From assembly GCA_947626285.1 (NCBI GenBank), contig CANQRR010000014.1, positions 1 to 62,999 of the forward strand: 62,999 bases of DNA, in the 5' to 3' direction. Below the pieces are notes generated by a model. It did not search any database, was not told where the DNA came from, and worked only from the letters and a program-made list of their open reading frames with translations. The position numbers and the translations under genes are program-made. Origin of the DNA: an uncultured Lachnospiraceae bacterium. GTDB taxonomy: Bacteria > Bacillota > Clostridia > Lachnospirales > Lachnospiraceae. The first letter of the stretch is position 1; each line of letters begins with the position of its first letter. Shown here one piece after another: positions 44,574-62,200 of this stretch.

Positions 44574-44652
44574 AAACAGAAGGAAAGCTGCCGCAGGGCC
44601 GGCACCGACGGGTGAGGGTTTTGCGGCAAGTTTATTGTCAGGAGGAAGCGAT

Positions 44653-46950
44653 ATGATTAAGTTGTACGATAACGGCGTGTATCTGGTAAACGGCACTGAG
44701 ATCATTGAGGACGGGCCGCAGGCGCGCGCGGCGCTTGAGCAGAAGACCGGACAGGCTCCGTCGAAGGAGGAGGCCGCCAGAGAGACGATCGCGTATTCGA
44801 TCCTGGAGGCGCACAATACGTCCGGAAATATGGAGAAGCTGCGCATCAAGTTCGACAAACTGACCTCACACGACATCACCTTCGTCGGGATCATCCAGAC
44901 GGCGCGCGCGTCGGGGCTGGAGAAGTTTCCGGTGCCCTATGTGCTGACGAACTGCCACAATTCCCTGTGCGCGGTCGGCGGCACGATCAACGAGGACGAC
45001 CACATGTTTGGCCTCAGCTGTGCGAAGAAATACGGCGGCGTCTACGTCCCGCCGCACCAGGCGGTCATTCATCAGTTCGCGCGAGAGATGCTTGCCTGCG
45101 GCGGCGCTATGATCCTTGGCTCTGATTCACATACGCGCTACGGCGCGCTCGGCACGATGGCGATGGGCGAGGGCGGTCCGGAGCTCGTGAAGCAGCTGCT
45201 CGGGCAGACCTACGACATCAACATGCCGGGCGTGATCGGCATTTATCTGACGGGAAAACCGGTGCCGGGCGTCGGTCCACAGGACGTGGCGCTGGCGATC
45301 ATCGGCGCGGTCTTCGGCAACGGCTATGTGAACAACAAGGTGATGGAGTTTGTCGGGCCGGGCGTGGAGAATCTCAGCGCGGACTTCCGCATCGGCGTCG
45401 ACGTCATGACGACTGAGACGACTTGCCTGTCCTCTATCTGGAAGACTGACGATCAGATCAAAGAGTTCTATGAGATCCACGGCAGGAGCGGAGATTACAA
45501 AGAACTGAATCCGGGCGCGGTGGCGTACTACGACGGCATGGTCTGCGTGGACTTAAGCGAGATCCGCCCGATGATCGCGATGCCGTTCCATCCGAGCAAC
45601 ACCTACACGATCGAGGAGCTGAACGCGAACCTGATGGACATTCTGGACGACGTGGAGCAGCGCGCGAAGGTGAGTCTGGACGGGGCGGTGGATTTTACAC
45701 TGAAGAACAAGGTGCGAGACGGAAAGCTGTACGTGGACCAGGGCATCATCGCGGGCTGCGCGGGCGGCGGATTCGAAAACATCTGCGATGCGGCCGATAT
45801 CCTGAAGGGCCGATTCATCGGTTCCGACGAGTTTACGCTGAGCGTCTACCCAGCGAGTACGCCGATCTACATGGAGCTGGCGAAGAACGGCAGACTTGCC
45901 GACCTGATCCAGAGCGGCGCGATCGTGAAGACCGCGTTCTGCGGACCGTGCTTCGGCGCGGGCGACACGCCGGCGAACAACGCGTTCAGCATCCGGCATT
46001 CGACGCGGAACTTCCCGAACAGAGAGGGTTCGAAGCTGCAGAGCGGACAGATTGCGTCTGTGGCGCTGATGGACGCGCGTTCCATCGCGGCGACCGCGGC
46101 GAACAAGGGCTACCTGACCGCGGCGACCGACATCGACGTGAACTACGGGAAGCCGAAATATTTCTTCGATAGCAGCATCTACGCGAACCGCGTCTTTGAC
46201 AGCAAGGGCGTGGCGGATCCGTCCGTTGAGATCAAGTTCGGCCCGAACATCAAAGACTGGCCGCCGATGGTCGAGCTGACGGAGAATCTGATGCTGAAGG
46301 TCGTCTCTGAGATTCATGATCCGGTGACGACGACCGACGAGCTGATCCCGTCCGGCGAGACGTCCTCCTACCGCTCGAATCCGCTAGGGCTGGCGGAGTT
46401 CACGCTTTCCAGAAAGGATCCGGCGTACGTGGGACTGGCGAAGGAAGTCCAGAAGGCGGAGAAGGCGCGTGAGGCGGGCGAGTGTATGGGCGAGGCGCTC
46501 CCGGAGCTGCGGACCGCGATGCATACGGTCAAGGCCGTGCCGGAATTCAAGGATGTATGTGGAAAGAACACCGGCGTCGGCAGCACGATCTTCGCGGTGA
46601 AGCCGGGCGACGGCTCCGCGAGAGAGCAGGCGGCGTCCTGCCAGAAGGTATTGGGCGGCTGGGCGAACATTGCGAACAGCTACGCGACGAAGCGTTACCG
46701 CTCGAATCTGATCAACTGGGGCATGCTCCCGTTCCTGATCGACGAGGGTGAGCTTCCGTTCAAAAACAAAGACTACCTGTTTATCCCGGGCATCCGCGCG
46801 GCGGTGCAGAACAAAGCGACAGAAGTGACAGCTTACGTCGTGAAGGACGGGACGCTCACGCCGTTTACCCTGAGGCTTGGGGAGATGACGGACGATGAGA
46901 GGCAGATCATACTGGATGGCTGTCTGATCAACTACAACCGTGTGAAATAA
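44653..46950 (+). CDS. Aconitase-superfamily hydratase
   Basis: A 765-residue protein with the aconitase domains, including iron-sulphur cysteine regions ([22 protein letters not shown]) and the swivel-like C-terminal part ([20 protein letters not shown]). It resembles the YbhJ-like group more than citrate-cycle aconitase, so its true substrate is uncertain. Isocitrate dehydrogenase and citrate synthase genes are not adjacent. The ATG at 44653 ([11 protein letters not shown]) follows CAGGAGGAAGCG. A strong bidirectional terminator follows. Confidence 0.9.
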
Positions 46951-46957
46951 GACCAAA

Positions 46958-47011
46958 AAAGAATTCGTTCGGATCTTGAGAGTGTTTTGAAAGATTCCGA
47001 ACGAATTCTTT
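46958..47011. terminator. Bidirectional terminator
   Basis: A perfect 16-bp stem (46958-46973 with 46996-47011, AAAGAATTCGTTCGGA and its complement) with a 22-nt loop, A-rich on one side and T-rich on the other. It separates the hydratase gene from the converging sulfotransferase gene. Confidence 0.85.
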
Positions 47012-47031
47012 GTGAAAATAAAATACGTATT

Positions 47032-48243
47032 TTACTTATCTTTACCGGAGAGATGTCGTATCTTTCGTTTCAGGCGATAAAGGGGAACACTCTCCCGGAT
47101 ATCGTTCATATCCTTGCGCATTTTTTCAAGCTCTTTTTTCAGCTGTCGGTTTTTTTGCTCAAGAAGCTGTACGGTTCTTCCGTAAAACAGAATCGTATTC
47201 AGGAGCAGATCGTCGGGTTCCTGCTGATATTGCGGGAGCTGCCTGATCTCTGAGTCGTAAAAGAGAACGCCGTCTTTCCGGCCGAGATACTCAATAGCCA
47301 GACGCCTGTTCGACTCGGCAAACCTCCCCAGAAACGCCTCCTGTTCCTGCGGATCAAAGAGCGTGGTCGGTGTGTAGTCTTCTTGTGTAACCGCAAAACC
47401 CTGCAGCTCACGAAGTCCCTTCATCAGAGCCTGCGTCTCGTAGGGAGTCTCGTGGGTGGATTCGTATGCCGTTTCATATGGTGGAATATATTTATCCACG
47501 AATGAAACTTTAGAGAGAGGGTTAAGGATCCGCTGTATGTCAAGGCGGATGCCGTCGAGGGAGATGTTCTGTTCCCGCTGCCTGATCTCAAAGCCATCCT
47601 GGAGCGTAAGCCCGAAGATATCGAGAAAATCGGAAAAAATGTTGTGCTCCGCGCCTTTGTACTGACTCTTTTCATAAACCCGGATAAAGAGGTTCTCCCG
47701 CCCCAGAATGTCCGACAACATATCCATGTAAGCGGGATAGTCCAGAGGGTATACGTCGACGATATAGTTCAGATAATCGTGAAAATCTCTCTGTGTAGCG
47801 GCTTCCTTGACTTTCTGCCGGTACAGGGATTCCATGAAGGTATCCTGACGCCGGAGATAGACGATAACGCGAAGCTCCAGATTTCTCTCCGCGAGATCTC
47901 TTTTCAGGCGCTTCCAAAACTCCGGCTGCCGGCTTCTTGCGCGCCACAGAGCTTCGTCCGAGAGAATGATCTTGTCGTATTCCTTTCCGAGCTTTCCGAT
48001 CTGGTCCATGATAGGCGTATATTCTTCGATCGGGCGGCTGACGTCCTTTTTTCCGTTCTCATCGACATGGGAACAGGCGAGAAAATGCGCGTTCCGTCTC
48101 AGCCCTACGCTGGGAAAACGGAAGTTGAAATCGGGGAAACAGATGCCGTGTTTTTTGAGCGTGACCGGATTGTCGGTCAGAAAATATTGTATGGCGGTCG
48201 TCCCGGTCTTTGGCATGCCAATGTGCAGATATACGGTAGACAT
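47032..48243 (-). CDS. PAPS-dependent sulfotransferase-family protein (ST1)
   Basis: A 403-residue P-loop protein starting MSTVYLHIGMPKTGTTAIQ, with the 5'-phosphosulfate loop GMPKTGTTA (8-16). The 3'-phosphate-type segment IVYLRRQDTFMESLYRQ (about 130-146) fits the PAPS 3'-phosphate site (Arg and Ser). A C-terminal coiled coil ends in a basic tail LKRKIRHLSGKDK. It is one of four paralogs here and lies beside PAPS-making genes, so sulfation of a carbohydrate is the likely reaction (inference); the acceptor is unknown. The ATG follows AGGAGG; 34 nt separates it from ST2. Confidence 0.85.
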   Translation of the reverse strand: MSTVYLHIGMPKTGTTAIQYFLTDNPVTLKKHGICFPDFNFRFPSVGLRRNAHFLACSHVDENGKKDVSRPIEEYTPIMDQIGKLGKEYDKIILSDEALWRARSRQPEFWKRLKRDLAERNLELRVIVYLRRQDTFMESLYRQKVKEAATQRDFHDYLNYIVDVYPLDYPAYMDMLSDILGRENLFIRVYEKSQYKGAEHNIFSDFLDIFGLTLQDGFEIRQREQNISLDGIRLDIQRILNPLSKVSFVDKYIPPYETAYESTHETPYETQALMKGLRELQGFAVTQEDYTPTTLFDPQEQEAFLGRFAESNRRLAIEYLGRKDGVLFYDSEIRQLPQYQQEPDDLLLNTILFYGRTVQLLEQKNRQLKKELEKMRKDMNDIRESVPLYRLKRKIRHLSGKDK

Positions 48244-48277
48244 AAGTTTCCTCCTAAAAAATATTCTAATGGTCCTA

Positions 48278-49429
48278 TCAATTTTCTTTTCCGAAGATAT
48301 GACGAAGTTTTCTTTTTAAACGGTAGAAGAGGACGTCCTCACGCACATCCCGAATCTCTTTCCGCAGTTCTTTTCGCAGCTCTTTGATTTCTTCGTGTGC
48401 GGATTGAAGCTCTTCTTCCAAAAGCTGTACGGATCTCCCATATAAAAAGATGGTTTCTCGGATCAGTTCCTCCGTATTAAGGGAGTATTCCGGAAGGTCC
48501 ATATCCGTTTCGTTATAAAAGAGCACGCTGTTTTCCCTTCCCAGATAATCCCTGGCAAGGCGCGCATTTGACTCTGAGAAACCGGCCAGATAGGCAGATT
48601 GCTCCCCGGGCTTGAAAAAACTGGTTTTTTCCAATTCTGTTCCGTCTTCGGGAAAAGAATAGAGCGCTTCCATTAATATTTTGTTTTTATAAGGCTTAGG
48701 AAGCGGACTCAGGGCACGCTGTAATTCGAGACGGGTATCACTTTGGGAAAGATTATACAGCTGATTCTTTATCTCGAAACCATCTTCCAGAGAAAGGCTA
48801 AAAATATTTAAGAAGTCAGAAAAAAGATTATGTTCTTTCCCCAGATATTGTTCTCTTTCATAAATACGGATCATTAAATTTTCTTTTCCGACACAATTAG
48901 AAAGCATCGCCATATAAGAATAATAATCCAATGGATATACCCTGTCAAAATCTTCCAAAAAATCATGGAATGAAAGTGTTGTTTTGAAACGTTTGACTTT
49001 CTGCCGATAGATAGACTGGACAAAATTGTCCTGTCTTCGCAGGTAGACGAGAATACAAAGATCCAAGCCCTGATTTTTCAAATCTTTTTTCAATCTGCAC
49101 CAAAACTCCGGAAGTTCCCTCTTGCTTCTCCATAGGTCCTCATCTGAAAGAATAATTTGATCATAATGGTGACTCAGATCTTCAAGGCGGTTCAGTACAG
49201 ATTGATAATCAGCATATGCGGCATCCTCACACAGATTACCGGAATCTGACATTTTGACTTTGACAAGAAAATGCCCATTGCGGGGAAGCCCGACCCGAGA
49301 ATATCGAAGTCCAAAATCGGGAAAACAAATTCCGTGCTTTTTCAACGCTTCGGAATTATCGGATAAAAAATTTTGTATGGCAGTCGTCCCGGTCTTTGGC
49401 ATACCGATGTGCAGATATACGGTAGACAT
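48278..49429 (-). CDS. PAPS-dependent sulfotransferase-family protein (ST2)
   Basis: A 383-residue paralog of ST1: same start (MSTVYLHIGMPKTGTTAIQ), same PAPS loops (LVYLRRQDNFVQSIYRQ), the DFLNIFSLSLEDGFEI segment, and a coiled-coil/basic tail (YRLKRKLRHIFGKEN). Its 5' untranslated sequence is similar to that of ST1 (CTCCT...ATATTCT before the start on the + strand), evidence for duplication of gene plus leader. It is AT-richer than neighbours. Start ATG after CAGGAG; it has its own promoter at 49465-49493. Confidence 0.85.
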   Translation of the reverse strand: MSTVYLHIGMPKTGTTAIQNFLSDNSEALKKHGICFPDFGLRYSRVGLPRNGHFLVKVKMSDSGNLCEDAAYADYQSVLNRLEDLSHHYDQIILSDEDLWRSKRELPEFWCRLKKDLKNQGLDLCILVYLRRQDNFVQSIYRQKVKRFKTTLSFHDFLEDFDRVYPLDYYSYMAMLSNCVGKENLMIRIYEREQYLGKEHNLFSDFLNIFSLSLEDGFEIKNQLYNLSQSDTRLELQRALSPLPKPYKNKILMEALYSFPEDGTELEKTSFFKPGEQSAYLAGFSESNARLARDYLGRENSVLFYNETDMDLPEYSLNTEELIRETIFLYGRSVQLLEEELQSAHEEIKELRKELRKEIRDVREDVLFYRLKRKLRHIFGKEN

Positions 49430-49464
49430 AAATTTTCTCCTGAAAAAAATATTCTCATGTCCCA

Positions 49465-49493
49465 ATTATAAGGATATGAGAATACCTTGTCAA
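49465..49493 (-). promoter_or_regulatory. Promoter of ST2 (and ST1)
   Basis: On the - strand: TTGACA (49493-49488), a 17-nt spacer and TATAAT (49470-49465), a perfect consensus promoter. A 9-bp inverted repeat TATTCTCAT/ATGAGAATA (49450-49458, 49476-49484) spans the spacer and start point and could be an operator. Confidence 0.85.
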
Positions 49494-49516
49494 GAAAGGA
49501 TGCCTTCCGTTTACCG

Positions 49517-50614
49517 TTATGAAACCGGCCGTGTGTCCTGATGCCCGATACGCCGGATGATTTTTTTCAGACGAGGAAACAGAGTACGCTTTTCTTTTAT
49601 CTGGTTGAGCTCAAGCTCCAATGTACGGAACGCCCGGGCATAGAAACGAATCGTTTCCTGCAATAGCGCTTCCGTATCAACTTTGTATAACGGCAATTCC
49701 TGATCAGAGTCGTCGTAAAAGAGAATTCCGTTGTCTCTGCCGAGATATTCCCGCGCGAGCCGGCTGTTCGTCTCAGCGAAACGTTCCAGATAGGCGGATT
49801 GTTCCCCTGGCGGAAAGAATGACGTCTTGACAGAATCATCATGCAGACTGTTCTTTGCGTTTTCCGAGAAAGACTGTATGAGAAGCGGGTCTGTGGTAAT
49901 TTCCGGAGAAACTGAATTGAGAAGACGACGCAACTCAAAATGAGGATCGTCGAGCGATTTATTCAGCTCTTCCTGCTGGACTGTGAATCCGTCTTCTGGA
50001 GACAGACCGAATATATCGAGAAAATCCGAGTGAAGAGTCTTTAAGTTTCCGTGAAACTGTTCTTTTTCGTAAACGCGGATAAACAGATTCTCCCGCCCTA
50101 AAATATCAGACAGCATATTCATGTACGAATAATAATCCAGAGGATATATTTCTTCGGACTCACACAGGTAATCCCGGAAGGAGAGATCCGTGTGGCGCCC
50201 CTTGACCCGCTGACGATAATAGGAGAGCAGGAAGCGGTCCTGCCTCCTGAGATATACAATAATACAGAGTCTGAGATTCCTCTTTTTGAAGTCATCGCGC
50301 AGCTTTTTCCAGAGCTCCGGCTGGTTTTCCCCTCTGCGCCAGATCGCCTCGTCCGAAAGAATGATCTTATCAAAGGCCTTGCCAAGCTCCTCGAGCTGAG
50401 GCAGAACTGATTCATAAATGGGTATATTTTTGCCCTTAAAATACTGGCACACAAAATGCCCGTTTCGGTAAGGGCTGATCTCGGAATAAGTCAGGCCGAA
50501 ATCCGGATAACAGATACCATGTTCCTTCAGGACATCATTGTTGTTCCGGAGGAAATGCTGGATTGCCGTGGTTCCTGTCTTAGGAAGACCAATGTGCAGA
50601 TAGATAATTGCCAT
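49517..50614 (-). CDS. PAPS-dependent sulfotransferase-family protein (ST3)
   Basis: A 365-residue paralog (MAIIYLHIGLPKTGTTAIQ). It keeps the PAPS 5' loop, the IVYLRRQDRFLLSYYRQ 3'-phosphate segment and the DFLDIFGLSPEDGF element, but its C-terminal coiled coil is shorter and ends FPRLKKIIRRIG, so it is the most diverged in its tail. The ATG at the complement of 50612-50614 follows TGGGGA. It is divergent from ST4; the intergenic region holds the shared sulfation motif (50667-50689). Confidence 0.85.
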   Translation of the reverse strand: MAIIYLHIGLPKTGTTAIQHFLRNNNDVLKEHGICYPDFGLTYSEISPYRNGHFVCQYFKGKNIPIYESVLPQLEELGKAFDKIILSDEAIWRRGENQPELWKKLRDDFKKRNLRLCIIVYLRRQDRFLLSYYRQRVKGRHTDLSFRDYLCESEEIYPLDYYSYMNMLSDILGRENLFIRVYEKEQFHGNLKTLHSDFLDIFGLSPEDGFTVQQEELNKSLDDPHFELRRLLNSVSPEITTDPLLIQSFSENAKNSLHDDSVKTSFFPPGEQSAYLERFAETNSRLAREYLGRDNGILFYDDSDQELPLYKVDTEALLQETIRFYARAFRTLELELNQIKEKRTLFPRLKKIIRRIGHQDTRPVS

Positions 50615-50653
50615 ATAAATCCCCAATCATGTTTTTTGATAAAAACTGATAAT

Positions 50654-50689
50654 AGTATACGGACTGATTGTGAAGCGAATACGGCAAAA
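50654..50689 (-). promoter_or_regulatory. Shared sulfation-locus motif at the ST3 promoter
   Basis: A 23-nt site (50667-50689; + strand begins ATTGTGAAGC and contains TACGG) is 20/23 identical to the one before cysD (56124-56146). On the - strand a TATACT box (50654-50659) follows 7 nt after it, so the motif covers the -35 and spacer region. It may be an operator or an activator site. Confidence 0.6.
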
Positions 50690-50751
50690 TCAATAGAAAG
50701 ACAAATAATTTTGCATAAATTGTCTATCAAGGACTGAGAAAGCGGATAAAC

Positions 50752-50780
50752 TTGACATGTTTTGGTTTCTCATCTATTAT
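50752..50780 (+). promoter_or_regulatory. Promoter of ST4
   Basis: TTGACA (50752-50757), 17 nt, TATTAT (50775-50780), 32 nt before the ST4 start codon. It diverges from the ST3 promoter, and the shared motif lies between them. Confidence 0.8.
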
Positions 50781-50812
50781 TTACAATAATACAGTTATTG
50801 GAGGAGAAGCTT

Positions 50813-51970
50813 ATGGCAACGGTATATCTGCATATCGGACTTCCCAAGACCGGCACATCTTCTTTGCAAAATTTCCTTTCGAGTGAGAAGAATCAGGAGA
50901 TCCTGGCTAAACATGGGATCTGTTTTCCTGTTAAAGATTATGGCTATATGCGGATCAGTATTTATCGGAACGGACATTTCCTTGTTGTCTCCGACAAGGA
51001 TCTTGCCATGCAGGTAAGAAAACAGTTGGGAGAACAGTCAGCCCAGAAGATTTATAATAATGGTCTGGATCAGCTGTCTGAACTTGCAGAACAATACGAT
51101 CGAATTTTGCTTTCAGATGAGAGTATCTGGAAACGGGGACATGCTCATCCCGGATTTTGGTGCAGATTGAAGGAGGATCTGCAAAAAAGAAATCTGGCTG
51201 TCAGAATCATTGTATACCTTCGTCGACAGGATCTCTGGATGGAGTCTTACTATGCGCAGAAAGTAAAAGAGGGAAGAACCGGTGACAGGCTGGATGCCTT
51301 TATAAAAGGTTTAGAAAATGTTGGCTATCCCCTCGATTATTATCAATACATTGATGAGCTGGCCTCTCTGTTCGGAAAGGAAAATCTGGATATCCGTATT
51401 TTTGAAAAGACCCAGTTTTGTGGTGCAGAGCATACTATTTACTCTGATTTTCTGGATATTTTCGGCCTGTCTATGGAGAATGGATTCGAGATTGGGCTGG
51501 AACGATACAATGTGAAGTATGAAGGAGATCTTCTGGAGGCCAGACGTATTCTTAACAGTCTTCCGGAATATCAGCATCCCTGGCATCCGTTGAAAGACCC
51601 GTTTAATCTGCTTCACAGTATGCAGACGATCAATGCCGGGACAAAGTATGCATATTTTGATGAGCGGGAAAGGGAAGCATTTCTTGATTTATTTGCGGAA
51701 TCCAATCGAAAACTGGCTGTCGAATATCTTGGAAGGGAAGATGGCGCGCTTTTTTATGAAACGACCCCGAAACTTCCGGTCTATCAGGCAGATTCCTATG
51801 AGCTTATCCGCAGTATTGCGCTGGTCTATGCGAAGGAGTTTACAAATATAGCAGCCAGAAATCAGAAACTGGAAAAGGAGATTGCGGATCTTCGGGAATC
51901 CCTGTTGTCAACCCGCGTCAAAAAGAAAGTGAACCATTTGTTCGGAAGAGACCGGGATAAGAAGTTATAA
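50813..51970 (+). CDS. PAPS-dependent sulfotransferase-family protein (ST4)
   Basis: A 385-residue paralog (MATVYLHIGLPKTGTSSLQ), with the PAPS loop, IVYLRRQDLWMESYYAQ and DFLDIFGLSMENGFEI. The C-terminal coiled coil (QKLEKEIADLRESLLSTRV) ends in a basic KKKVNHLFGRDRDKK tail. It is the only one on the + strand. The ATG at 50813 follows GGAGGAG; the frame extends to 50762 but that lies in the promoter. Its end overlaps the converging CHR transporter gene by 6 nt. Confidence 0.85.
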   Translation: MATVYLHIGLPKTGTSSLQNFLSSEKNQEILAKHGICFPVKDYGYMRISIYRNGHFLVVSDKDLAMQVRKQLGEQSAQKIYNNGLDQLSELAEQYDRILLSDESIWKRGHAHPGFWCRLKEDLQKRNLAVRIIVYLRRQDLWMESYYAQKVKEGRTGDRLDAFIKGLENVGYPLDYYQYIDELASLFGKENLDIRIFEKTQFCGAEHTIYSDFLDIFGLSMENGFEIGLERYNVKYEGDLLEARRILNSLPEYQHPWHPLKDPFNLLHSMQTINAGTKYAYFDEREREAFLDLFAESNRKLAVEYLGREDGALFYETTPKLPVYQADSYELIRSIALVYAKEFTNIAARNQKLEKEIADLRESLLSTRVKKKVNHLFGRDRDKKL

Positions 51971-53290
51971 TGCGAGAAAGAAGGGATAGATGACCGAGAG
52001 AAACAGCGAGAGAGCCACATTCAGCAGAAGACCGGATACGATTGGACGAATGAAATGCCGAATCGTGGCAAAGATCCTGAGGTTTTCAAATTTCTGGAAG
52101 ACTGCCCATATGAGGACGTAGATGGAACCTGAGGCCGCCACACTGCAAGAGTAACCGGCGACTGCCATGAGGACGCCCTCCGCGATGGAACCGTGCAGGC
52201 CAAATCCGAGGGAATAGCCGACGCCTGTGAGGACTTTGCACAGAATGGAGCCCGGGAGCGCGTTCGCCACGGTGACAATGTTTCCGTAGAAATCTGTATG
52301 GCTGATGATCCCGCGTTCGACAAAGAGCCCCTGCGCCACAGAGAGATAGGCGTCTCCACCGCCGAAGGACATGACGGAAGAGAGGAAGCCGGTTCCCAGA
52401 AAAGGAATCGTTCCCGGAGAGATCAGAATCGCGGGAAACGACAGAAGGATCACAAATAGCAGCCAGAAAAGGACAGATAGAAGGAGTTCTTTTCCAAGCG
52501 TATCTTTTTTTCCCTGAACGCCGGATGCACGGCGTTTTTTTGATGCATGAACAGATTGAACAAGACCGAAAAGCGCGAGAACCGTCATGATCGTTATGAG
52601 AAACGGAGTCAGGGCAGGAGGGAGGATCTGTGCGCTGCCGGCACAGAGGAAATACAGCAGAGACAGAATAAGAGCCGGCACGGTCCTTTTGAATTCACGC
52701 AGCTGTCCTTCTGTGAAAAGAATCACAAAAAACGCGGCGGCCAGGATCTGTATGCTGGAGACCGCGAACAGAGGCGTTGTCGATATTCCGAGGAGCTGAT
52801 ATATATTCTTCTCAGCCGAGAGGAGAAAGACGGCCAGGATGACAAAGAGGTACAGCAGCATCTCCCGGCGACCGGCGGATTGCGTCAGCGTGCCGAGCAC
52901 GTAGCGAACGAGCAGGACAATGATGTAGACGGACACCAGTACAGCCAGAAAGGCGATGATCGTGCGCAGGCTGCTGTTCATGCCGGAAAATAGTACGAGC
53001 AGCAGCAAAGTCAGAAACGCGCCGGGCAACGCCATAAAGGCGGCCGCCGCGATCATTCCCGCATTGCCGGCAGCTTCTCTGCCGATGCCGGCGGCGATCT
53101 CCACCGGAAGTGCGCCCGGCGTGATGCTTGCAATTGTGACGTCCCGGTTGAAGCTCTCCTCAGTGATAATGGAGGAGCGGGTCACCAATTCTTTTTCCAA
53201 AACAGGAATCAGAGCGGTGCCCCCTCCAAAACCAATCAGTCCGATCTTCAGCATACGACCGGCGACGGAAGTAAGATTTTTTGTATTCAT
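51965..53290 (-). CDS. CHR-family (chromate-type) anion transporter
   Basis: A 441-residue membrane protein of two homologous halves, each with the CHR signature: IGLIGFGGGTALIP near residue 17 and SSVMSFGGGDAYLS near residue 290, and about 10-12 helices. Characterised CHR proteins move chromate and are thought to act on the sulfate analogue. Here it is the third gene of cysD-cysNC-chr (22 nt after cysNC), so sulfate uptake (or export) for the sulfation pathway is the likely job (inference). The ATG follows AGGAA. Confidence 0.85.
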   Translation of the reverse strand: MNTKNLTSVAGRMLKIGLIGFGGGTALIPVLEKELVTRSSIITEESFNRDVTIASITPGALPVEIAAGIGREAAGNAGMIAAAAFMALPGAFLTLLLLVLFSGMNSSLRTIIAFLAVLVSVYIIVLLVRYVLGTLTQSAGRREMLLYLFVILAVFLLSAEKNIYQLLGISTTPLFAVSSIQILAAAFFVILFTEGQLREFKRTVPALILSLLYFLCAGSAQILPPALTPFLITIMTVLALFGLVQSVHASKKRRASGVQGKKDTLGKELLLSVLFWLLFVILLSFPAILISPGTIPFLGTGFLSSVMSFGGGDAYLSVAQGLFVERGIISHTDFYGNIVTVANALPGSILCKVLTGVGYSLGFGLHGSIAEGVLMAVAGYSCSVAASGSIYVLIWAVFQKFENLRIFATIRHFIRPIVSGLLLNVALSLFLSVIYPFFLAL

Positions 53291-53312
53291 AGATATTCCT
53301 GCAGTGTTTGAT

Positions 53313-55172
53313 CTAGCTTGCGGCTCCGTCGAAATGTTTCAGCTGCGGGTAACGCTCTGTGAGCGTATTCCAGATCAGAGCGGCGCATTTTTCAGGCTCC
53401 AGCGAAGTGGTGTCGATCGTGACGTCCGCGTGCTGCGGGACTTCGTACGGACTTGAGATGCCGGTGAAGTCTGAGAGTTCGCCGCTGCGCGCTTTCTTGT
53501 AGAGCCCCTTGATGTCGCGGCGCTCACACTCCTCAAGCGGCGTGCTCATGTACACTTCCACGAAGGAATCCGCGCCGATGATGTCCTTTGCCATCTGACG
53601 GTCTCTGGCGTACGGGGAGATGAACGCGGTGATGACGATCAGTCCTGCGTCGTTCATCAGCTTGGCCACCTCTGCGATCCGGCGGATATTCTCGATGCGG
53701 TCCGCCTCCTTGAAGCCGAGATTGCGATTCAGGCCCATACGGATGTTGTCGCCGTCGAGGGTCATCGTGTGCATGCCGCGCGCGACGAGCTGCTTCTCCA
53801 ACTCGTTGGAGACGACGGACTTTCCGGCTCCGGACAGGCCGGTCATCCAGATCGTGATGGGCGGCTGCCCCTTCTGTCCGGCGCGGAACTCCCTTGTTAC
53901 ATCCAGCTTCTGCCAGGTCAGGTTGTTGGAGCGCTGGATGCTGCGCAGAACGACGCCGCAGGCCGAGGTCATGTTTGTGACGCGGTCGATCAGGATCAGC
54001 GAGCCAAGCGCCTGATTGTTGCGGAATTTATCAAAAACGATCTTGTCCGATACAGAGATATCGCATTCGGCGATTTCATTTTTATAAGTGGCGTCCGCCG
54101 GGATCTCGTCGCCGGTGTTGACGTCGATCTTGTGGTTGATTGCCATGACGATCGCCGGGATCAGGCGGGTGCCGAGTTTCAGATAATAGTTCTTCCCCGC
54201 GATGAGGGGATTGTCGTCCATCCAGAGAAGACGGACCGTGAACAAACTGCCGACATACGGCTGAAAATCCTTCGCGAGGACACAGCCTCTGGAGACGTCC
54301 ACCTCACGGTCGAGCGAGACGGTGACCGCGTGACCGCAGGCGGCGGAATCAACATCTTTTCCGGCGTCGATGATCCGGCTGACGACCGCCTTTTCACTGG
54401 AGGGAAGCGAGGTGACCTCATCCCCGACGTGCAGTGTGCCGGACTCGATCTGCCCCTGGAACCCGCGGAACGTGTGGTCGGGGCGGCAGACACGCTGCAC
54501 CGGCATCGCGAAGCCTTCGTTTCCCTCTGATTCGTGGATGTCAATATCCTCAAGGTAGGTCAGAAGGGAAACGCCGCGATACCACAGCATATGGCTGGAT
54601 TTCTGCATGATGTTGTCACCCTCCGTCGCGGAGACGGGGAGGATCTTCATGGTCTCAAATTCGTGCTCCGACATCATGCGCCGGATGTCGCGCGAGATCT
54701 TCTCGAAACGGTTCTCATCGTAGGAGATGAGGTCCATCTTATTGACGGCAAAGACGAAATGCCGGATGCCCATCATGGCGCAGATCCGCGCGTGCCGTCT
54801 TGTCTGCACCAGCACGCCGTGTGTGGCGTCCACGAGGATCACGGCGAGGTCCGCAAAGGACGCGCCGACCGCCATATTCCTTGTGTACTCTTCATGCCCC
54901 GGAGTGTCGGCGACGATGAAAGAGCGCTTTTCGGTCGTAAAGTAACGATAAGCCACGTCGATCGTGATGCCCTGCTCACGCTCCGCCATGAGTCCGTCGA
55001 GCAGCAGGGAGTAGTCGATCGCGCCGCCGCGGGAGCCCACCTTGCTGTCGAGGTGAAGCGCCTGCTCCTGGTCGGCGAAGAGTAGCTTGGCGTCGTAGAG
55101 CATATGTCCGATCAGCGTGGATTTTCCGTCGTCCACACTGCCGCAAGTGATAAATTTCAGAAGACTATTCAT
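53313..55172 (-). CDS. cysNC: Bifunctional ATP sulfurylase GTPase subunit/APS kinase
   Basis: A 619-residue NodQ-like fusion. The N-terminal EF-Tu-type GTPase (1-~430) has GSVDDGKSTL, DTPGHEEY and NKMD; the C-terminal APS kinase (about 445-619) has GLSGAGKSVV, DGDNIRMGLN and FISPYARDR. With CysD it makes APS using GTP energy, and the kinase domain converts APS to PAPS. The kinase P-loop ends KSVV rather than the common KST. The start follows GGAGGGG within the end of cysD. Fusion with the kinase points to PAPS as the end product. Confidence 0.95.
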   Translation of the reverse strand: MNSLLKFITCGSVDDGKSTLIGHMLYDAKLLFADQEQALHLDSKVGSRGGAIDYSLLLDGLMAEREQGITIDVAYRYFTTEKRSFIVADTPGHEEYTRNMAVGASFADLAVILVDATHGVLVQTRRHARICAMMGIRHFVFAVNKMDLISYDENRFEKISRDIRRMMSEHEFETMKILPVSATEGDNIMQKSSHMLWYRGVSLLTYLEDIDIHESEGNEGFAMPVQRVCRPDHTFRGFQGQIESGTLHVGDEVTSLPSSEKAVVSRIIDAGKDVDSAACGHAVTVSLDREVDVSRGCVLAKDFQPYVGSLFTVRLLWMDDNPLIAGKNYYLKLGTRLIPAIVMAINHKIDVNTGDEIPADATYKNEIAECDISVSDKIVFDKFRNNQALGSLILIDRVTNMTSACGVVLRSIQRSNNLTWQKLDVTREFRAGQKGQPPITIWMTGLSGAGKSVVSNELEKQLVARGMHTMTLDGDNIRMGLNRNLGFKEADRIENIRRIAEVAKLMNDAGLIVITAFISPYARDRQMAKDIIGADSFVEVYMSTPLEECERRDIKGLYKKARSGELSDFTGISSPYEVPQHADVTIDTTSLEPEKCAALIWNTLTERYPQLKHFDGAAS

Positions 55173-55174
55173 GA

Positions 55175-56077
55175 CTAGAAATACCCCTCCTTCTTTCTCT
55201 TTTCCATGCTGGCGCTACCGCCGTCGCTGTCGATCACGCGGCTTGTCCGCTCGGAGGATACCGCGCCGAGCGTCTCCTCGACGATTGCGTCCAGCGTGTC
55301 GGCGGTGCTCTCTACTCCGCCGGTCAAGGGGTAGCAGCCGAGCGTCCGGAAACGGATCATGCCGTGCTCGACGACCTCGCCCTCCTTCAGGCGCATGCGG
55401 TCGTCGTCGACCATGATGATGTTGCCGTTTCGCCGTACGAAGGGCCGCTCCTTCGCGAAGTACAGGGGAACGATATCAATGTTCTCCTGACGGATGTACT
55501 GCCAGATATCGGCTTCCGTCCAGTTGGACAGAGGGAAGACACGGATCTCCTCGCCCTGATGGATCTGGGTATTGTAGAGCTTCCACATTTCTGGGCGCTG
55601 ATTCTTGGGATCCCAGGCGTGGCTCGCGTTGCGGAAGGAGAAGATGCGCTCCTTGGCGCGGGACTTTTCCTCATCCCGCCGGCCGCCACCGAACGCCGCT
55701 GTAAAGCCATACTTGTCGAGCGCCTGCTTGAGCGCCTGCGTCTTCATGATGTCGGTGTACGCCGCGCCGTGGTCGAACGGGTTGATGCCCTGTGCGACGC
55801 CCTCTTCATTGATGTACTCGAGCATGGTGATCCCGTATTTCTGCGCGACCTTGTCCCGGAACTCGATCATCTCGCGGAACTTCCAGGTCGTATTCACGTG
55901 CAAGAACGGGAAGGGCGGCTTCTCCGGGTAAAACGCTTTCAAAGCCAGGTGCAGCATGACAGAGGAATCCTTGCCGATCGAGTAGAGCATGACCGGTTTC
56001 TCGCATTCGGCGGCGACTTCGCGCATGATATAGATCGCCTCTGCCTCCAGTTTGTCAAGATGGGTCATTGTTGTCAT
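55175..56077 (-). CDS. cysD: ATP sulfurylase small subunit (adenylyltransferase)
   Basis: A 300-residue PP-loop protein ([20 protein letters not shown]) with the CysD signatures [12 protein letters not shown] and [23 protein letters not shown], and the C-terminal [11 protein letters not shown]. It adenylates sulfate to APS as partner of the CysN GTPase. It is 2 nt before cysNC in the same operon. The ATG follows AAAAAGGAG. A promoter with the shared sulfation motif lies just upstream. Confidence 0.96.
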
Positions 56078-56112
56078 AGTAACTCCTTTTTGCCGTGATA
56101 AAACGACACTAT

Positions 56113-56146
56113 ATTATAGGTTTATTGTGAAGCAATTACGGTAAAA
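56113..56146 (-). promoter_or_regulatory. cysD-cysNC-chr promoter with shared motif
   Basis: On the - strand a perfect TATAAT (56118-56113) follows 5 nt after a 23-nt motif at 56124-56146 that is 20/23 identical to the motif at 50667-50689 (+ strand ATTGTGAAGC, then ATTACGGTAAAA). The motif occupies the -35/spacer region; no TTGACA is seen, so activation through the motif is plausible. Confidence 0.65.
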
Positions 56147-56177
56147 CATAAATAATTCTGAGAACACAGCAGCACAG

Positions 56178-58829
56178 CTACAAAACACGGCTGCGCTCAT
56201 GTTCCAGCATGATCGGATAAATGCGCTCGCAGTTGTGATGATCCGAGAAGGCAAAGAAATCGTCTGCGCGCTTCCGGTACTTTTCAGGCATGACACAGTC
56301 GTTCTTCATGTATTTGCAGAGCACGTCGATCAGCTCGTCATTCGTATGGCAGATCTCGCCGAAGCTCATCGTCGCGTAGTGGAATGTCCCCTCGTCGTAG
56401 TGCTGCGGGATATCCTCGTGGTGCAGGTAAACGACCGGCTTGCGCATGTACGCGAAGTCAAATTGTACGCCGGAGAAATCCGTCACCATCAGCGCCGCCT
56501 CACAGAACAGCTTTTCATAGCTCATGTCGCCGATCGAGGGAATGATCTCGACCAGATCGTTTTTCGTGAAATCTTTGCACTGAGGGCTGACGATCGGGTG
56601 CAGGACATACTGGATCCGATAGCCGTACTGTCTTGCCGCGGCCAGCAGCCGCGGATCGTTGATGAGGCCATTGTAGACCTTATAATAATTCGTCTCCCGG
56701 AAATTCGGATTGTAATCGCGGGCGACGCCCTCATTTACCGATACTGTCATCGCGGAATTCATGCGCCAGGTCGGGGAGATCAGGATGATCTTCTGCGCCC
56801 GATCCTGCAGGCCGTCGTAGCGCGGCACGCCGGTCAGCTTCAGCGCGTCGTAGCCAACGTAATCGTAGACCGGCTTGGAGAGATTTTCAATCTCATATTT
56901 GGAGGCGCAGAAGTAAAGCCTTGTGTTGTCGCGCAGACGCTGTTGTGCCAGAGCGATCTTCTGCACCGACATTCCGTGCTGGACGCAGGCCACGTCGAAA
57001 TGAATGTCACTGCGGAACGGAAACATGCTGCGGAAATTGTAACCATTGAACGCGACGACCGTCGAGTTTGACGCGATCACCAGGTTCGCGTTCAGGAAAA
57101 CCAGCTTGTGCTTCAGGCTGTCGCGCTTCAGCGGGCGGTATCCATCCCGGCGCATACGCGCGTAGTCCGCAGAGGAAGGATCCAGCAGATAATACTTTTT
57201 GATGCCGTCCTTCTTTGCGGCGGTATAGCGGTACAGATATTCGGAAGAATCTCCGCCTTTGTAGATCTTGTCGAGAAACAGCCAGATCTTCTGCCGCGAA
57301 AAGTACGGCCGCAGCAGGAAGTTCAGCGCCTTGAGCGGAATCTGTCTGCGGTGTCCCTTGCGGATGACCCACATCTGCCACCAGAGACGGATCTGCCGGA
57401 ACAACACAAAATGCCAGTCGGCTCTGCGGATGTGGATACCGTCCGGCAGCCAGTAGGCAGCGTACTTTCCGAACTGCCAGAGCGCGCCCGGAAAATCTTT
57501 CGTGAACCGGCTCGTGTGGCAGGGGAACGCGTAATCCAGCTGGTACTCCTTTCCGCCTGCGTGCAGGACGAAGAGGAGCATGCGCTCTTTGTCCGGCGGC
57601 GGGAGCGGAATGGAGGTGTGGAAGGTGTGATAGCGCGTAAAGCTTACACCGAAACACTTTGTCAGGGAATATCGCTGATTGTAAGTAAGAGAATAATCCT
57701 TTCCGTCAAAACGGGCAGTCAGCTCGGTGCCTTCCGTGCGGTAAATGTCGTTGATCTCTCCATCGATCTCCAGCTGTCCGTTCCGGTAATCCAGCATCTG
57801 GATCCGCACGGTGAGCAGAGACAGGTCGGAAAAGATGACGCTGTCACAGCTGAGACACAGCTCGTCCCTGCCGGGCATGTTTCCGGGCTGGAGATCTTTC
57901 ACGGGCGTCAGCGCGCAGCGATAGGAAAAATCCTTCTCCTTGAGCTTCATGGCAAGAAGACTGAAGTCTGTTCCGAAAAAGCTGGTCGCGCAGTCGCGGC
58001 AGAGCACCGCCTCCGTGTTTACATACTGTAGAACGTCAGAAAATAAGGCCGAATAATCGGGGACTTCCTCCGGCGCGATCACATGTCGGTTCCGGTTGTC
58101 GATATTCGCGAAAATTCGGGTCTGTATCATATACAGGGCAAGACACTGCAGATAAACGTTTACCTGCCCGGCAGACTCCTGCTCCTGCCGCAGGGCGGGC
58201 AGCAGAAATTTTTCGAACGGATCGTAGTACCATTCCCGTGTGTTGCAGGGAAAATAATATTCAAAATCGCACTCCCGCGGATAAGCGTAGGTAAGCAGCA
58301 TTGTGCCCAGATAGAGATAGCGCGGGTTCCGGTAAAACAGGTACAGAAGCGCCTGCTTTTCCGCGGCCGGGGACTCCTGCGCCCGGGCGAGCGCGTCCTG
58401 CAGCTCTTTTGTGCGGATCAGCAGTCCGTGCAGCTCTGTCGGAAATACAGGCGGAAAAGCGGAGCGGTCGGACAGATCCACGAGGACGTCTTTCGGATGC
58501 TCCGGAAGAAAAAACTGATAGACCCGCTTTACTTTCGGAAAGAGAAAGGATGGCATCGCAAGCACTGCATTGCTTCCTTCGAGTCGTGCCAGCAGCTTTT
58601 CCAGGAAGTTCGGCTCCGGTTTGTCGTTCTCGTCGAGCAGGATCGTGAAGCGGCCTTTGGCCTCGGCAAATTTTTTCAGGGCGTTCTCACGTGGAGCGTA
58701 GATGTTGTCATCGAACACGGGAAGCCACTGGATCCGGTCCGCGGTTAGACTCTGCGCCGGGAACATGCCCGGATCGGCTTTCTTTTCTTTATGATATGCG
58801 TAGATCACAGTGATATCATAGCCTGCCAT
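56178..58829 (-). CDS. CDP-glycerol glycerophosphotransferase-family (TagB/TagF-like) protein
   Basis: An ~883-residue protein. The N-terminal ~240 residues resemble a degenerate GT-A glycosyltransferase fold (FTILLDENDKPEP); the middle (~240-470) is a beta-rich region; the C-terminal ~400 residues carry glycerophosphotransferase motifs: ACVQHGMS, ISPTWRMNS, and MVTDFSGVQFDFAYMRKPVVY with the HYDEG segment. Such enzymes polymerise or prime wall teichoic acid from CDP-glycerol or CDP-ribitol. I chose the ATG at 58829 (MAGYDITVIYAYHK), after AAAGGAG; the frame extends to 58901 but those codons lie in a dispersed repeat. Its product may be the polymer sulfated by ST1-ST4. Confidence 0.87.
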   Translation of the reverse strand: MAGYDITVIYAYHKEKKADPGMFPAQSLTADRIQWLPVFDDNIYAPRENALKKFAEAKGRFTILLDENDKPEPNFLEKLLARLEGSNAVLAMPSFLFPKVKRVYQFFLPEHPKDVLVDLSDRSAFPPVFPTELHGLLIRTKELQDALARAQESPAAEKQALLYLFYRNPRYLYLGTMLLTYAYPRECDFEYYFPCNTREWYYDPFEKFLLPALRQEQESAGQVNVYLQCLALYMIQTRIFANIDNRNRHVIAPEEVPDYSALFSDVLQYVNTEAVLCRDCATSFFGTDFSLLAMKLKEKDFSYRCALTPVKDLQPGNMPGRDELCLSCDSVIFSDLSLLTVRIQMLDYRNGQLEIDGEINDIYRTEGTELTARFDGKDYSLTYNQRYSLTKCFGVSFTRYHTFHTSIPLPPPDKERMLLFVLHAGGKEYQLDYAFPCHTSRFTKDFPGALWQFGKYAAYWLPDGIHIRRADWHFVLFRQIRLWWQMWVIRKGHRRQIPLKALNFLLRPYFSRQKIWLFLDKIYKGGDSSEYLYRYTAAKKDGIKKYYLLDPSSADYARMRRDGYRPLKRDSLKHKLVFLNANLVIASNSTVVAFNGYNFRSMFPFRSDIHFDVACVQHGMSVQKIALAQQRLRDNTRLYFCASKYEIENLSKPVYDYVGYDALKLTGVPRYDGLQDRAQKIILISPTWRMNSAMTVSVNEGVARDYNPNFRETNYYKVYNGLINDPRLLAAARQYGYRIQYVLHPIVSPQCKDFTKNDLVEIIPSIGDMSYEKLFCEAALMVTDFSGVQFDFAYMRKPVVYLHHEDIPQHYDEGTFHYATMSFGEICHTNDELIDVLCKYMKNDCVMPEKYRKRADDFFAFSDHHNCERIYPIMLEHERSRVL

Positions 58830-58857
58830 AGCCTGCGCCGTCTCCTTTTCTATAGTC

Positions 58858-58907
58858 TGAGCCGTGCGCTCCTGAAAACCTGTGTTTGTCATTGTCTGCA
58901 CGGCTCA
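58858..58907. repeat. Dispersed inverted-end element, short copy 3
   Basis: TGAGCCGTGC (58858-58867) and GCACGGCTCA (58898-58907), perfect 10-bp inverted ends only 30 nt apart. The right flank (ATTGCTTTCGCGG) matches the corresponding flanks of copies 1 and 2, but the internal core is missing, so it looks like a deletion derivative. It lies in the leader of the glycerophosphotransferase-family gene. Confidence 0.7.
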
Positions 58908-59114: not shown

Positions 59115-59197
59115 ACAACCATCAACAAAAACATTTGTTGTTCCTATAGATAGTACATACCTATAGAAGAATTCAAAAAGGAGGAGGTCGATTCCAA

Positions 59198-59577: not shown

Positions 59578-59719
59578 TGCAAAAATCTGCATTTTTCGAC
59601 AGGTTGGTTTTGACAACAAAATGGAGGTATGGTACACTAAAAAAAATGTTTCATATAAATGAAAAGAAATAAATAAAAATTTTAAGGCGTATGCCGAATG
59701 TAATGGCGGGGTGGGGGAA

Positions 59720-62200
59720 TTGGACAAGTACGAATACAATCTCAAGCTGGAAGAGATCGACAAGCTGGTAGATCAGGGGGATTATGCGGAGGCGGCGAAG
59801 CTTGCCGACTCCATCGACTGGAGAAGAGTGCGGAACATCCGGACGCTCTGCCTGATCAGCGAGATCTATGAGGCATCCGGAAGGCTGGAGGACAGCAAGA
59901 GTATTCTGGTGCGCGCATACAGGCGCTCCCCGGTCGGACGGACGGTGCTGTACCGGCTGATCGAGGTGACGACGGAGCTGCAGCAGTATGACGAGGCGAT
60001 CGAATATTATACGGAGTATGTGCAGGCGGCACCGCACGACAACAATCGTTACATTCTCAAGTATAAGATCTACAAGGGACGGGGAAGCTCAATAGAGGAG
60101 CTGATTGCGATCCTTGAGGAATATCTGGGACAGGAGTATACGGAGAAGTGGGCGTACGAACTTGCGAAATTGTATCAGCAGTCCGGGCAGATGCAGAAAT
60201 GTCTGGCGGCCTGCGACGATCTGGTGCTTTGGTTCCACAGCGGAAAGTATGTGGCGAAGGCTCTTGAGCTGAAGAAGCGTTATGCCACGCTGACGCCGAA
60301 GCAGCAGCAGATCTATGAGGAATGCCTGGAGGAGAAGATAGAGGAAGACCGTTCTGCCGAAGAGGAAGAGGACAATGTGATCCAGAAGGTCGAGAGCACG
60401 GATGGAGAGGTGATCGCGGAGTCGATCATGGCCGAGACGGAGAAGGAGATCGCGGATCAGGTCACGGCACACAAAGCGGAGATGGAGAAGACGCCGGAGG
60501 AAGTTCCGGATATCGAAAAGACCAGACAGTATGTGAAGCCGGGGCAGGAGCCGCAGGAGTCTGAGCAGGAGGACACAAAGAACCTGCAGATACAGCTTGC
60601 GAAGAGCATGCGGAAGATCATTTCCGGTGTTGTAAAGCACAGCGATGAGGCGGAGGAGGACATTCCCGCGTCCGTAGACGCCGGGATCGCAAGGAGCCAG
60701 ACGCCGGAGATTCCGGAGGAGTCGGAGCAGATCGCCGGACAGCTTTCCATTGACGACATCCTTCTTGCGATGGGAGATCAGGGAAAGAAGATCACGGATC
60801 TGGTGCTTGGGGAGAAGGAAGAAGAGGCGCACGAGAGTGAAGCCGCAGCGCAGGATGCGCAGGCGGAGACGGCTTCCGGGACAGATGAAGAAAAGCCGGA
60901 GGAAGTTCCGGAGAACGCAGAGATGCAGGAAACGGAAGAGTCGGAGGAGGTGCCCGCCTTTGAGGAAAGGTCAGTCAGGAGCATGGTGGAAGCGGCGGCC
61001 GACGAGCTGACGGAGACACAGCGGGAAGCGCTGCAGTATACCAGCAATCCGGAGAAGCTTTTGCGGAACAAGGGTTCCCTTCCGACCTATATGGAAGCGC
61101 CGAAGGAGCCGGAGGATCTGGGAAAAACGCGCAGGATCGGGGACAGCAGGGAAGAGCTGATGGAAGCGGTCCGGCAGGACATCTTTTCTGGAAAGACGAG
61201 AAGGATTCCGACGGAGGAGATCTCCCGCAGAATGGACGAGGAGCAGCAGGGCGGTGCTCAGGAGCTTCCGCAGGGAGCGGACGAGCAGGACGGCGCTCAG
61301 GGGCTTCCGCAAGGTGCAGATATGGAGCAGCCGGACGGCATTCAGGAGCTTCCGCAGGATATGGATGGGGATGCCGGATATGAAGAGGGCGAGCCCACCG
61401 AGGCGGAGGAGCTTTCCGGCACGGACGACGAGGAATACGATGAGGAGTATCTCAGCATTCCGCAGTATCTGCGCGGACTCTTTGCCGGATTTACAGAGGT
61501 GGAAGGGCTTGAGGATCAGATCGCGAACGCCATTCTGCAGACGGAGGCGAAGGGCGACGACAAGACGTCGCGCAGCGGAAATATCCTGATCTTCGGCGCG
61601 CATGGTTCCGGCAAGACGACGCTTGCGATGAATCTTGCGAAGGCCATTGCGCAGGATAAGGGCAGCCAGACGATCAAGATGGCAAGGATTTACGCGGCGG
61701 ATCTCAACCGCAAGGACATTGCGGCGACAGTCGCAAAGATCGCCGGAGGCACGCTGATCATCGAGGAGGCGGGCGATCTGGAGCCGAACACCGTCGAGCA
61801 GCTGACGACCGCAATGGAGTTCCGGACGGACGGATTGATCGTGATCCTGGAGGACGAGCAGCAGTACATTCACGAGATGCTGATGCGCCATCCGCGCTTT
61901 ACGATGAAGTTTACGGCGCAGATCTATCTGCCGGAATATACGGTGGAAGAGCTGGCTGTATTCGGACGGATCTATGCGAACGCGCAGGACTATGTGATCG
62001 GCGACGAGGCGTACGAGGTATTCTGTCAGAAGATTGCGGCGGGGAACCCGGACGGGACGCCGATGACGATCTCCGGCGTGATCGATATCGTGGGCAGGGC
62101 GATCGCGCGTTCCGGGAAATTCTTCCGGAAGATCTCGATGGGCAAGAAGCGCTACGACGAGAATGATTTTGTGATCCTTTTCCCGAAGGATTTCAAATAG
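59720..62200 (+). CDS. TPR/acidic-linker/AAA+-like ATPase protein
   Basis: An ~826-residue protein. TPR-like repeats occupy the first ~180 residues, followed by ~400 acidic, disordered residues with three short repeats of the type QELPQGAD. A C-terminal P-loop domain (about 615-826) has GAHGSGKTT, the Walker-B-like LIIEEAGDL and a region (MRHPRFTMKF, YLPEYTVEELAVFGRIYA) like CbbX/SpoVK AAA+ proteins; a sensor arginine is not evident. Cytoplasmic; possibly a signalling or assembly scaffold (inference). The TTG at 59720 gives the MDKYEYNLKLEEIDKLV start; a GTG at 59711 is an alternative. It precedes the cytidylate-kinase-like gene. Confidence 0.78.
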   Translation: MDKYEYNLKLEEIDKLVDQGDYAEAAKLADSIDWRRVRNIRTLCLISEIYEASGRLEDSKSILVRAYRRSPVGRTVLYRLIEVTTELQQYDEAIEYYTEYVQAAPHDNNRYILKYKIYKGRGSSIEELIAILEEYLGQEYTEKWAYELAKLYQQSGQMQKCLAACDDLVLWFHSGKYVAKALELKKRYATLTPKQQQIYEECLEEKIEEDRSAEEEEDNVIQKVESTDGEVIAESIMAETEKEIADQVTAHKAEMEKTPEEVPDIEKTRQYVKPGQEPQESEQEDTKNLQIQLAKSMRKIISGVVKHSDEAEEDIPASVDAGIARSQTPEIPEESEQIAGQLSIDDILLAMGDQGKKITDLVLGEKEEEAHESEAAAQDAQAETASGTDEEKPEEVPENAEMQETEESEEVPAFEERSVRSMVEAAADELTETQREALQYTSNPEKLLRNKGSLPTYMEAPKEPEDLGKTRRIGDSREELMEAVRQDIFSGKTRRIPTEEISRRMDEEQQGGAQELPQGADEQDGAQGLPQGADMEQPDGIQELPQDMDGDAGYEEGEPTEAEELSGTDDEEYDEEYLSIPQYLRGLFAGFTEVEGLEDQIANAILQTEAKGDDKTSRSGNILIFGAHGSGKTTLAMNLAKAIAQDKGSQTIKMARIYAADLNRKDIAATVAKIAGGTLIIEEAGDLEPNTVEQLTTAMEFRTDGLIVILEDEQQYIHEMLMRHPRFTMKFTAQIYLPEYTVEELAVFGRIYANAQDYVIGDEAYEVFCQKIAAGNPDGTPMTISGVIDIVGRAIARSGKFFRKISMGKKRYDENDFVILFPKDFK

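Follow-up and report, generated by a model that had tools for sequence, protein, structure and literature searches.

Gene Content of the Locus

The stretch of DNA analysed here (the window) is the whole of contig C14 (62,999 nt) of the Lachnospiraceae assembly GCA_947626285.1, which consists of 3.73 Mb in 147 contigs with a completeness of 97.6% and a contamination of 4.75%. Open reading frame (ORF) analysis gives eight complete frames within 47032-58901, which encode four sulfotransferase-like paralogs (ST1-ST4), a CHR-family transporter, a fusion of CysN with adenosine 5′-phosphosulfate (APS) kinase (CysNC), CysD, and a TagF-like protein. A previous reading of the letters without database searches, called the sequence-only reading below, had placed these genes together within 12 kb and proposed that they sulfate a surface polymer; the gene content was borne out. 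The results indicate that the locus is very likely a dedicated module of sulfotransferases (STs) and 3′-phosphoadenosine 5′-phosphosulfate (PAPS) synthesis in gut Clostridia. The genes of the module are as follows.

47032..48243, minus strand: ST1, PAPS-type sulfotransferase-like protein, 403 aa, with a long C-terminal helix and basic tail (alignment, structure model)
48278..49429, minus strand: ST2, 383 aa from the conserved Met (longest ORF starts at 49465)
49517..50614, minus strand: ST3, 365 aa from the conserved Met (longest ORF starts at 50626)
50813..51970, plus strand: ST4, 385 aa from the conserved Met (longest ORF starts at 50762); divergent from ST3 and convergent with CHR
51965..53290, minus strand: CHR-family transporter with two PF02417 stretches (Pfam), putative sulfate importer
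53313..55172, minus strand: CysNC, 619 aa, GTPase subunit of ATP sulfurylase fused to APS kinase (NF004035)
55175..56077, minus strand: CysD, catalytic subunit of ATP sulfurylase, 300 aa (TIGR02039; tree group of the ST-linked copies)
56178..58901, minus strand: TagF-like protein, 907 aa, with a C-terminal CDP-glycerol glycerophosphotransferase domain (PF04464)

As judged from the ST alignment, ST2, ST3, and ST4 probably start downstream of the longest-ORF starts, at the Met codons near 49429, 50614, and 50813, respectively.

Sulfate Activation

CysD scored 482 bits against TIGR02039 (cut-off 397), and CysNC scored 832 bits against the fusion model NF004035 (cut-off 715). On the strength of these family assignments, PAPS synthesis by the locus is almost certain.

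The sequence-only reading had further remarked that the window contains no PAPS or sulfite reductase. This extends to the whole assembly: in the genome, 97.6% complete, there was no sulfite reductase domain (PF01077), and no CysH-like protein was found among the three PF01507 proteins other than CysD, which are DndC (TIGR03183 over its cut-off), a protein that reads as phage-like, and the L004 product, to which NCBIfam gave no name at 1e-10. The search for assimilatory sulfate reduction genes in this genome covered PF01077 and PF01507, and AprA was not searched for.

The genes were then counted in 47 genomes of the genus, where only CysD matches over the cut-off were accepted, so that the partial CysD of G020 is scored as absent, and linkage was determined from start coordinates on one contig. 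STs and CysD were both present in 31 genomes, with STs only in 2, CysD only in 3, and neither in 11 (p = 1.4e-6, without correction for kinship or incompleteness). With 15 kb as the limit, 20 of the 44 CysD places in these genomes are close to an ST, 8 are close to a sulfite reductase, 16 are near neither, and 0 are near both; no sulfite reductase match was obtained in 9 of the 20 genomes with a CysD-linked ST. In a midpoint-rooted CysD tree of 61 rows, left from 76 after the removal of identical ones, a single branch (98/88) sets apart a group that holds all 30 ST-linked rows and 15 rows linked to neither, and none of the 11 rows linked to sulfite reductase falls within it. Among these 15 rows, 14 belong to genomes of the genus, 11 of which have STs elsewhere in the genome. 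The CysD of the window falls in the ST-linked group. Because the tree and the linkage both split the ST-linked from the sulfite reductase-linked copies, two kinds of CysD, a sulfation-type and an assimilatory one, appear to exist, and some genomes hold both. The missing sulfite reductase, the linkage counts, and the tree thus uphold the proposal that PAPS is made for sulfation rather than assimilation, which can be held with high confidence.

Other CysD neighbourhoods were also observed in the genus. At L163 and L164 (G038 and G042), sulfation-group CysD/CysNC genes lie amid IspD-like, ABC-2 exporter, and PF04464-type genes, with no ST detected by profile; another sulfotransferase family may serve these genomes. 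At L169 and L170 (G012 and G007), a third CysD type, probably assimilatory, stands next to an ABC ATPase and AprA (adenylylsulfate reductase; AprA in L170). The neighbours of the second CysD type, namely GH3 (by reading), an S66 peptidase, and a P-type ATPase, indicated no sulfation partner.

As a separate observation, the DndC gene of the own genome (C31, L003, 296-3538) lies between frames that read as DndB-like and DndD-like, and this locus is probably one of DNA phosphorothioation.

Sulfotransferase Family

Identity to ST1 is 44-52% for ST2-ST4, and no further copies were found in the own genome. None has a Pfam or NCBIfam match at 1e-3, and the cut-offs of Sulfotransfer_1, _3, and _4 are not reached (ST2 scored 14.5 bits against Sulfotransfer_3, cut-off 27). 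Among 50 ST relatives at E 0.01, Sulfotransfer_4 matched two and Sulfotransfer_1 matched two. Confirmation of the fold required a 50-member profile and a predicted structure. The ST1 model built from 50 sequences (pLDDT 89.6) has heparan-sulfate sulfotransferases as its best structural neighbours and displays the predicted fold of the PAPS-dependent sulfotransferase superfamily. In the alignment of the 50 sequences, K12 and R131 are each conserved in 50 and S139 in 49. These residues form a P-loop Lys (5′-phosphosulfate loop) and an Arg-x7-Ser pair (3′-phosphate site), which we take to be the PAPS-binding residues, and the stretch aligns with LRNP...FS of 3rnl. E97, which is invariant, is a candidate for the base. 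The structural check called for by the sequence-only reading thus found both the PAPS-sulfotransferase fold and the binding residues, and from the model and the alignment ST1-ST4 are highly likely to be PAPS-dependent.

The STs therefore resemble heparan-sulfate sulfotransferases such as NDST1 and 3-OST in their fold and in the conserved Lys and Arg/Ser pair, but they share only 12-15% identity with them over the aligned part and lack a Pfam sulfotransferase match at the threshold given above. They are probably cytoplasmic, and the basic C-terminal tail may act as a membrane dock. In one relative, two adjoining proteins of 754 and 793 aa (L042, 7740-12382) each contain two ST-matching stretches and are tandem ST fusions.

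Proposed Sulfate Import and PAP Removal

The CHR protein matches PF02417 in two stretches, and its scores of 67 and 60 bits are below the equivalog cut-offs (250) of the chromate efflux proteins ChrA and ChrB. A literature search on CHR as a sulfate transporter gave no direct evidence among the matches listed, and the sulfate-binding protein TIGR00971 was not found in the own genome. Four relatives' ST loci (L028, L031, L032, and L037) carry a sulfate-type ABC transporter on the other strand and no CHR gene. The L037 transporter has a binding protein and an ATPase that exceed the sulfate models, and one permease that is over TIGR00969 (sulfate permease subfamily) and below the CysW equivalog. 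Since these CHR-less loci carry such a transporter, the proposed sulfate import by the locus becomes likelier, with CHR itself as the putative importer.

L033, L036, L044, and L045 share one protein cluster, the representative of which exceeds the TIGR01331 (CysQ) cut-off. A pathway that consumes PAPS requires sulfate import and the removal of 3′-phosphoadenosine 5′-phosphate (PAP), and the sulfate ABC transporter and CysQ correspond to these two steps. PF00459 had no match in the own genome, which contains an NrnA-like protein beside a TruB-like frame; this protein scored 105 bits and is below the NrnA equivalog cut-off of 350. NrnA acts as a PAP phosphatase.

Distribution and Turnover in Relatives

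The collection scan for ST loci covered the best 80 of 105 places, which represent 79 distinct loci. The named relatives among the matches listed are largely Lachnospiraceae, many from the 'Lapin' (rabbit) set of metagenome-assembled genomes (MAGs), with some Oscillospiraceae and distant matches in other phyla. Within the Clostridial set of 42 ST loci (L009-L049 and L056), tblastn detected CysD in 27 and CHR in 14, where the misses include incomplete contigs. A pair of histidine kinase and OmpR-type regulator genes occurs near CysD, CysNC, or an ST in 12 of these loci, as named from cluster representatives, and both families are very common.

The conservation of the two halves of the module differs. 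In L010, L011, L014, L017, and L018, CysD is 94-98% identical to that of the window, whereas the longer ST matches are 44-52% identical and a 72-residue fragment in L014 is 56% identical. A conserved PAPS supply combined with fast-changing STs would be expected if the surface structure on which the STs act is itself variable.

Acceptor

The PF04464 domain of the TagF-like protein covers residues 532-896 (121 bits, cut-off 22.1), and the protein scored 20.4 bits against the TarF equivalog, whose cut-off is 550. The first 530 or so residues had no Pfam match, and a search of the PDB gave nothing convincing. In 10 of the 20 genus genomes with an ST-linked CysD, this gene starts no more than 6 kb from that CysD. 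Of the polymerase, exporter, and CDP-polyol supply genes of a teichoic acid locus, the TagF-like gene is the only one recognised within the module. Genes for an ABC-2 exporter, IspD-like proteins, and LicD occur elsewhere in the genome or in relatives' loci. In the own genome these are an ABC-2 exporter, LicD, and PF04464 on C19, IspD, an epimerase, YfhO, and PF04464 on C74, and IspD and PF04464 on C93. On C19 (L181, 15986-17476), a JetA-family (Wadjet) protein is also encoded, not far from the polymer genes.

In the neighbourhoods of the relatives' STs, for which the Pfam scans cover cluster representatives and not every member, polymer genes recur, and several relatives have their STs within clusters of teichoic or capsule type. 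L042 carries on one strand two PF04464 genes (one by cluster membership), an epimerase, and an ABC-2 exporter, followed by CysD, CysNC, and two double-length STs, and L048 has an ABC-2 exporter and a PF04464 gene ahead of the ST. In L027, L038, and L039 (representatives scanned in L027), five STs in a row precede genes for a pyruvyl transferase, a PF04464 protein, an IspD-like protein, and an epimerase, and in L174 two STs lie amid GT2, GT1, PF04464, Stealth, pyruvyl transferase, and flippase genes. Stealth, PF04464, and UDP-glucose dehydrogenase genes are found in L043, and in L025/L026 (scanned in L026) CysD is preceded by YfhO and a phosphoglycerol transferase I-like protein, whose 173 bits fall short of the model cut-off. 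A PF04464-type gene lies within 10 kb in 16 of 47 ST loci, the window's included, in a set of non-independent loci of which several are incomplete; the own genome has four PF04464 genes in 3.73 Mb, or about 0.02 per 20 kb. These neighbourhoods support a surface polymer as the target, and a surface glycan or polymer is judged a likely acceptor. The narrower proposal of a teichoic acid came out weaker, as TagF-like orthologs also occur in ST-less genomes of the genus, and a specifically teichoic-type acceptor is a tentative and rather doubtful choice.

Layout and Borders

The minus-strand row of the TagF-like gene, CysD, CysNC, and CHR has gaps of about 100, 2, and 22 bases, and ST3, ST2, and ST1 form a second minus-strand row. 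ST4 lies between both rows; since it is on the plus strand and convergent with CHR, the locus is not one operon. Promoter-like sites, each a consensus match only, were found just upstream of ST2 (TTGACA-17-TATAAT at 49493-49465, 12 of 12 consensus letters), before ST4 (50752-50780, 11 of 12), and before the TagF-like gene (58951, 10 of 12), among 25 such sites found versus 12.9 expected. No Rfam family reached its gathering score anywhere in the window.

The borders are formed by two genes outside the module.

44530..46950, plus strand: aconitase-type gene, left border, a conserved flank (named by reading)
59711..62200, plus strand: TPR-like protein, right border, from its position in relatives (named by reading)

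The site was compared in eight of the 17 genomes in which STs are absent or unlinked. In four of the eight ST-less genomes (G004, G017, G018, and G019), a stretch of 1-1.9 kb without any module gene separates the aconitase-type gene from the TPR-like gene, compared with 12.8 kb in the window; no TPR-like gene was seen adjoining the aconitase-type gene in the remaining four (G002, G021, G024, and G031). The GC content is 42-49% in the ST block (47000-52000), 59-61% in the aconitase-type gene, and 58-59% in the CysNC/CysD stretch; the remainder of 40000-62999 is at 52-61%, apart from the mainly intergenic 59000-59999 at 39.5%. The low GC content of the ST block suggests exchange of the ST genes.

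Discussion

The preferred reading, which is considered fairly probable, is that the locus is a dedicated sulfation module acting on a surface glycan or polyol-phosphate polymer. In the proposed mechanism, CHR would import sulfate, CysD/CysN would convert it into APS, and the fused APS kinase would produce PAPS, as follows from the families. The four probably cytoplasmic STs, with their heparan-sulfate-sulfotransferase-like fold and basic tails possibly docking on the membrane, would transfer the sulfuryl group to hydroxyls of the polymer during its assembly at the inner membrane face. In this organism the NrnA-like protein, and in some relatives CysQ, would clear the PAP product. Construction of an acceptor may involve the TagF-like enzyme, but its orthologs exist in relatives without these STs. 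Sulfated glycans and lipids are known in rhizobia and mycobacteria, and in NodPQ-NodH of rhizobia CysD and a CysN-APS kinase are dedicated to sulfating a glycan. The likeness to NodPQ-NodH lies in this gene set, although the rhizobial product is a signal oligosaccharide of a Gram-negative organism.

Several results weigh against this reading. The genes co-occur in relatives, which supports the sequence-only reading, but their linkage is not constant: STs lie away from CysD in 13 of 33 ST-bearing genus genomes, which is close to the finding of unlinked genes that had been named as refuting it, and 11 of the 13 hold a same-clade CysD elsewhere. In L171/L172, unlinked STs lie amid frames that read mostly as housekeeping and not polymer genes, and 31 of 47 ST loci, some on incomplete contigs, have no PF04464-type gene within 10 kb. 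G026, G038, and G042 hold a sulfation-group CysD and no detectable ST. The turnover of the STs is uneven, as the closest locus, L009, has STs of 88% and 67% identity beside a 99% identical CysD. With Foldseek alone, the sole convincing match was 3rnl (E 1.2e-3), and a first, shallow ST1 model (4 sequences, pLDDT 62.6) gave mostly generic P-loop matches, with one sulfotransferase-fold entry, retinol dehydratase, at rank 34; the PDB search with a 4-row ST profile returned no sulfotransferase. TagF-like orthologs, taken as matches that exceed about 580 bits and, in G034, a fragment at a contig end, occur in 23 of 33 ST genomes versus 7 of 14 ST-less ones (23/10/7/7, p = 0.32), and all matches at 1e-60 give 24 of 33 and 10 of 14. 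These counts do not support the TagF-like gene as a marker of sulfation. It also stands beside the same flanking genes in the ST-less G002 and G018; because of these ST-less occurrences, it may be an older resident.

The main rival, in our analysis, is that the STs sulfate small molecules, for instance a secreted metabolite or a phenol, sterol, or bile acid, in the way that BT_0416 of Bacteroides sulfates cholesterol. The report on the cholesterol sulfation cluster BT_0411-BT_0416 of Bacteroides thetaiotaomicron (PMC9417993) describes a parallel gene set in a gut bacterium, in which a sulfotransferase gene accompanies genes for PAPS synthesis and for a putative sulfate importer. Many ST and CysD/CysNC loci have no PF04464-type gene nearby. 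That cluster has one sulfotransferase, which was shown to act on cholesterol; here there are four paralogs, with polymer genes in some relatives' loci. A small-molecule acceptor is considered unlikely.

A membrane glycolipid or lipid anchor as the acceptor, instead of a polymer, would agree with probably cytoplasmic STs that end in a basic tail and with the phosphoglycerol transferase I-like and YfhO genes of L025/L026, which fit lipid-anchored acceptors. However, the scanned neighbour representatives included polymer exporters but no recognisable lipid or glycolipid synthase, which leaves this explanation with a low probability. That CysD/CysNC serve assimilation with the STs as chance neighbours is very improbable: assimilation starts with the same enzymes and the STs are unlinked in the 13 genomes mentioned, but neither sulfite reductase nor a CysH-like protein was found in the genome by the searches for PF01077 and PF01507, and separate CysD copies adjoin sulfite reductase at eight genus places and fall outside the ST-linked group of the tree. 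The assimilation role was therefore rejected. A defence role was also set aside; PADLOC, in a scan that lacked ST2, ST3, and CysNC, gave one weak BrxP match, on CysD.

A Gram-positive parallel to the proposed surface-sulfation module is wps-1 of Actinoplanes missouriensis, a putative sulfated polysaccharide cluster whose sulfation itself is unproven (PMC13390465). It resembles the present loci in having sulfotransferases within a polysaccharide cluster, but it is of the Wzx/Wzy type and from an actinomycete, and CysD is not named in the main text. In the literature searched, from which subscription papers are mostly absent, the phrase 'sulfated teichoic acid' was not found and sulfotransferase, CDP-glycerol, and sulfate adenylyltransferase were not joined; nothing on the locus was found by title or abstract opening among the matches listed.

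Sulfation of a polymer would be an unexpected decoration for a Gram-positive gut-type bacterium, and the question is testable in relatives whose records are not labelled MAG, namely Parablautia sp. Marseille-Q6255, Roseburia sp. 1XD42-69, and Bacterium 1XD42-54. It is conceivable, although somewhat short of probable, that sulfated polymers of teichoic or capsular type are made by many Lachnospiraceae and some Oscillospiraceae, through a sulfate-activating module that is separate from assimilation and an ST family that changes fast, and that gut Firmicutes thus present sulfated surfaces, which recall host glycosaminoglycans in their charge chemistry. If this is true, sulfate esters would be present on the surfaces of gut Gram-positive bacteria, bearing on their charge, on recognition by phages and antibodies, and on the gut sulfate pool.
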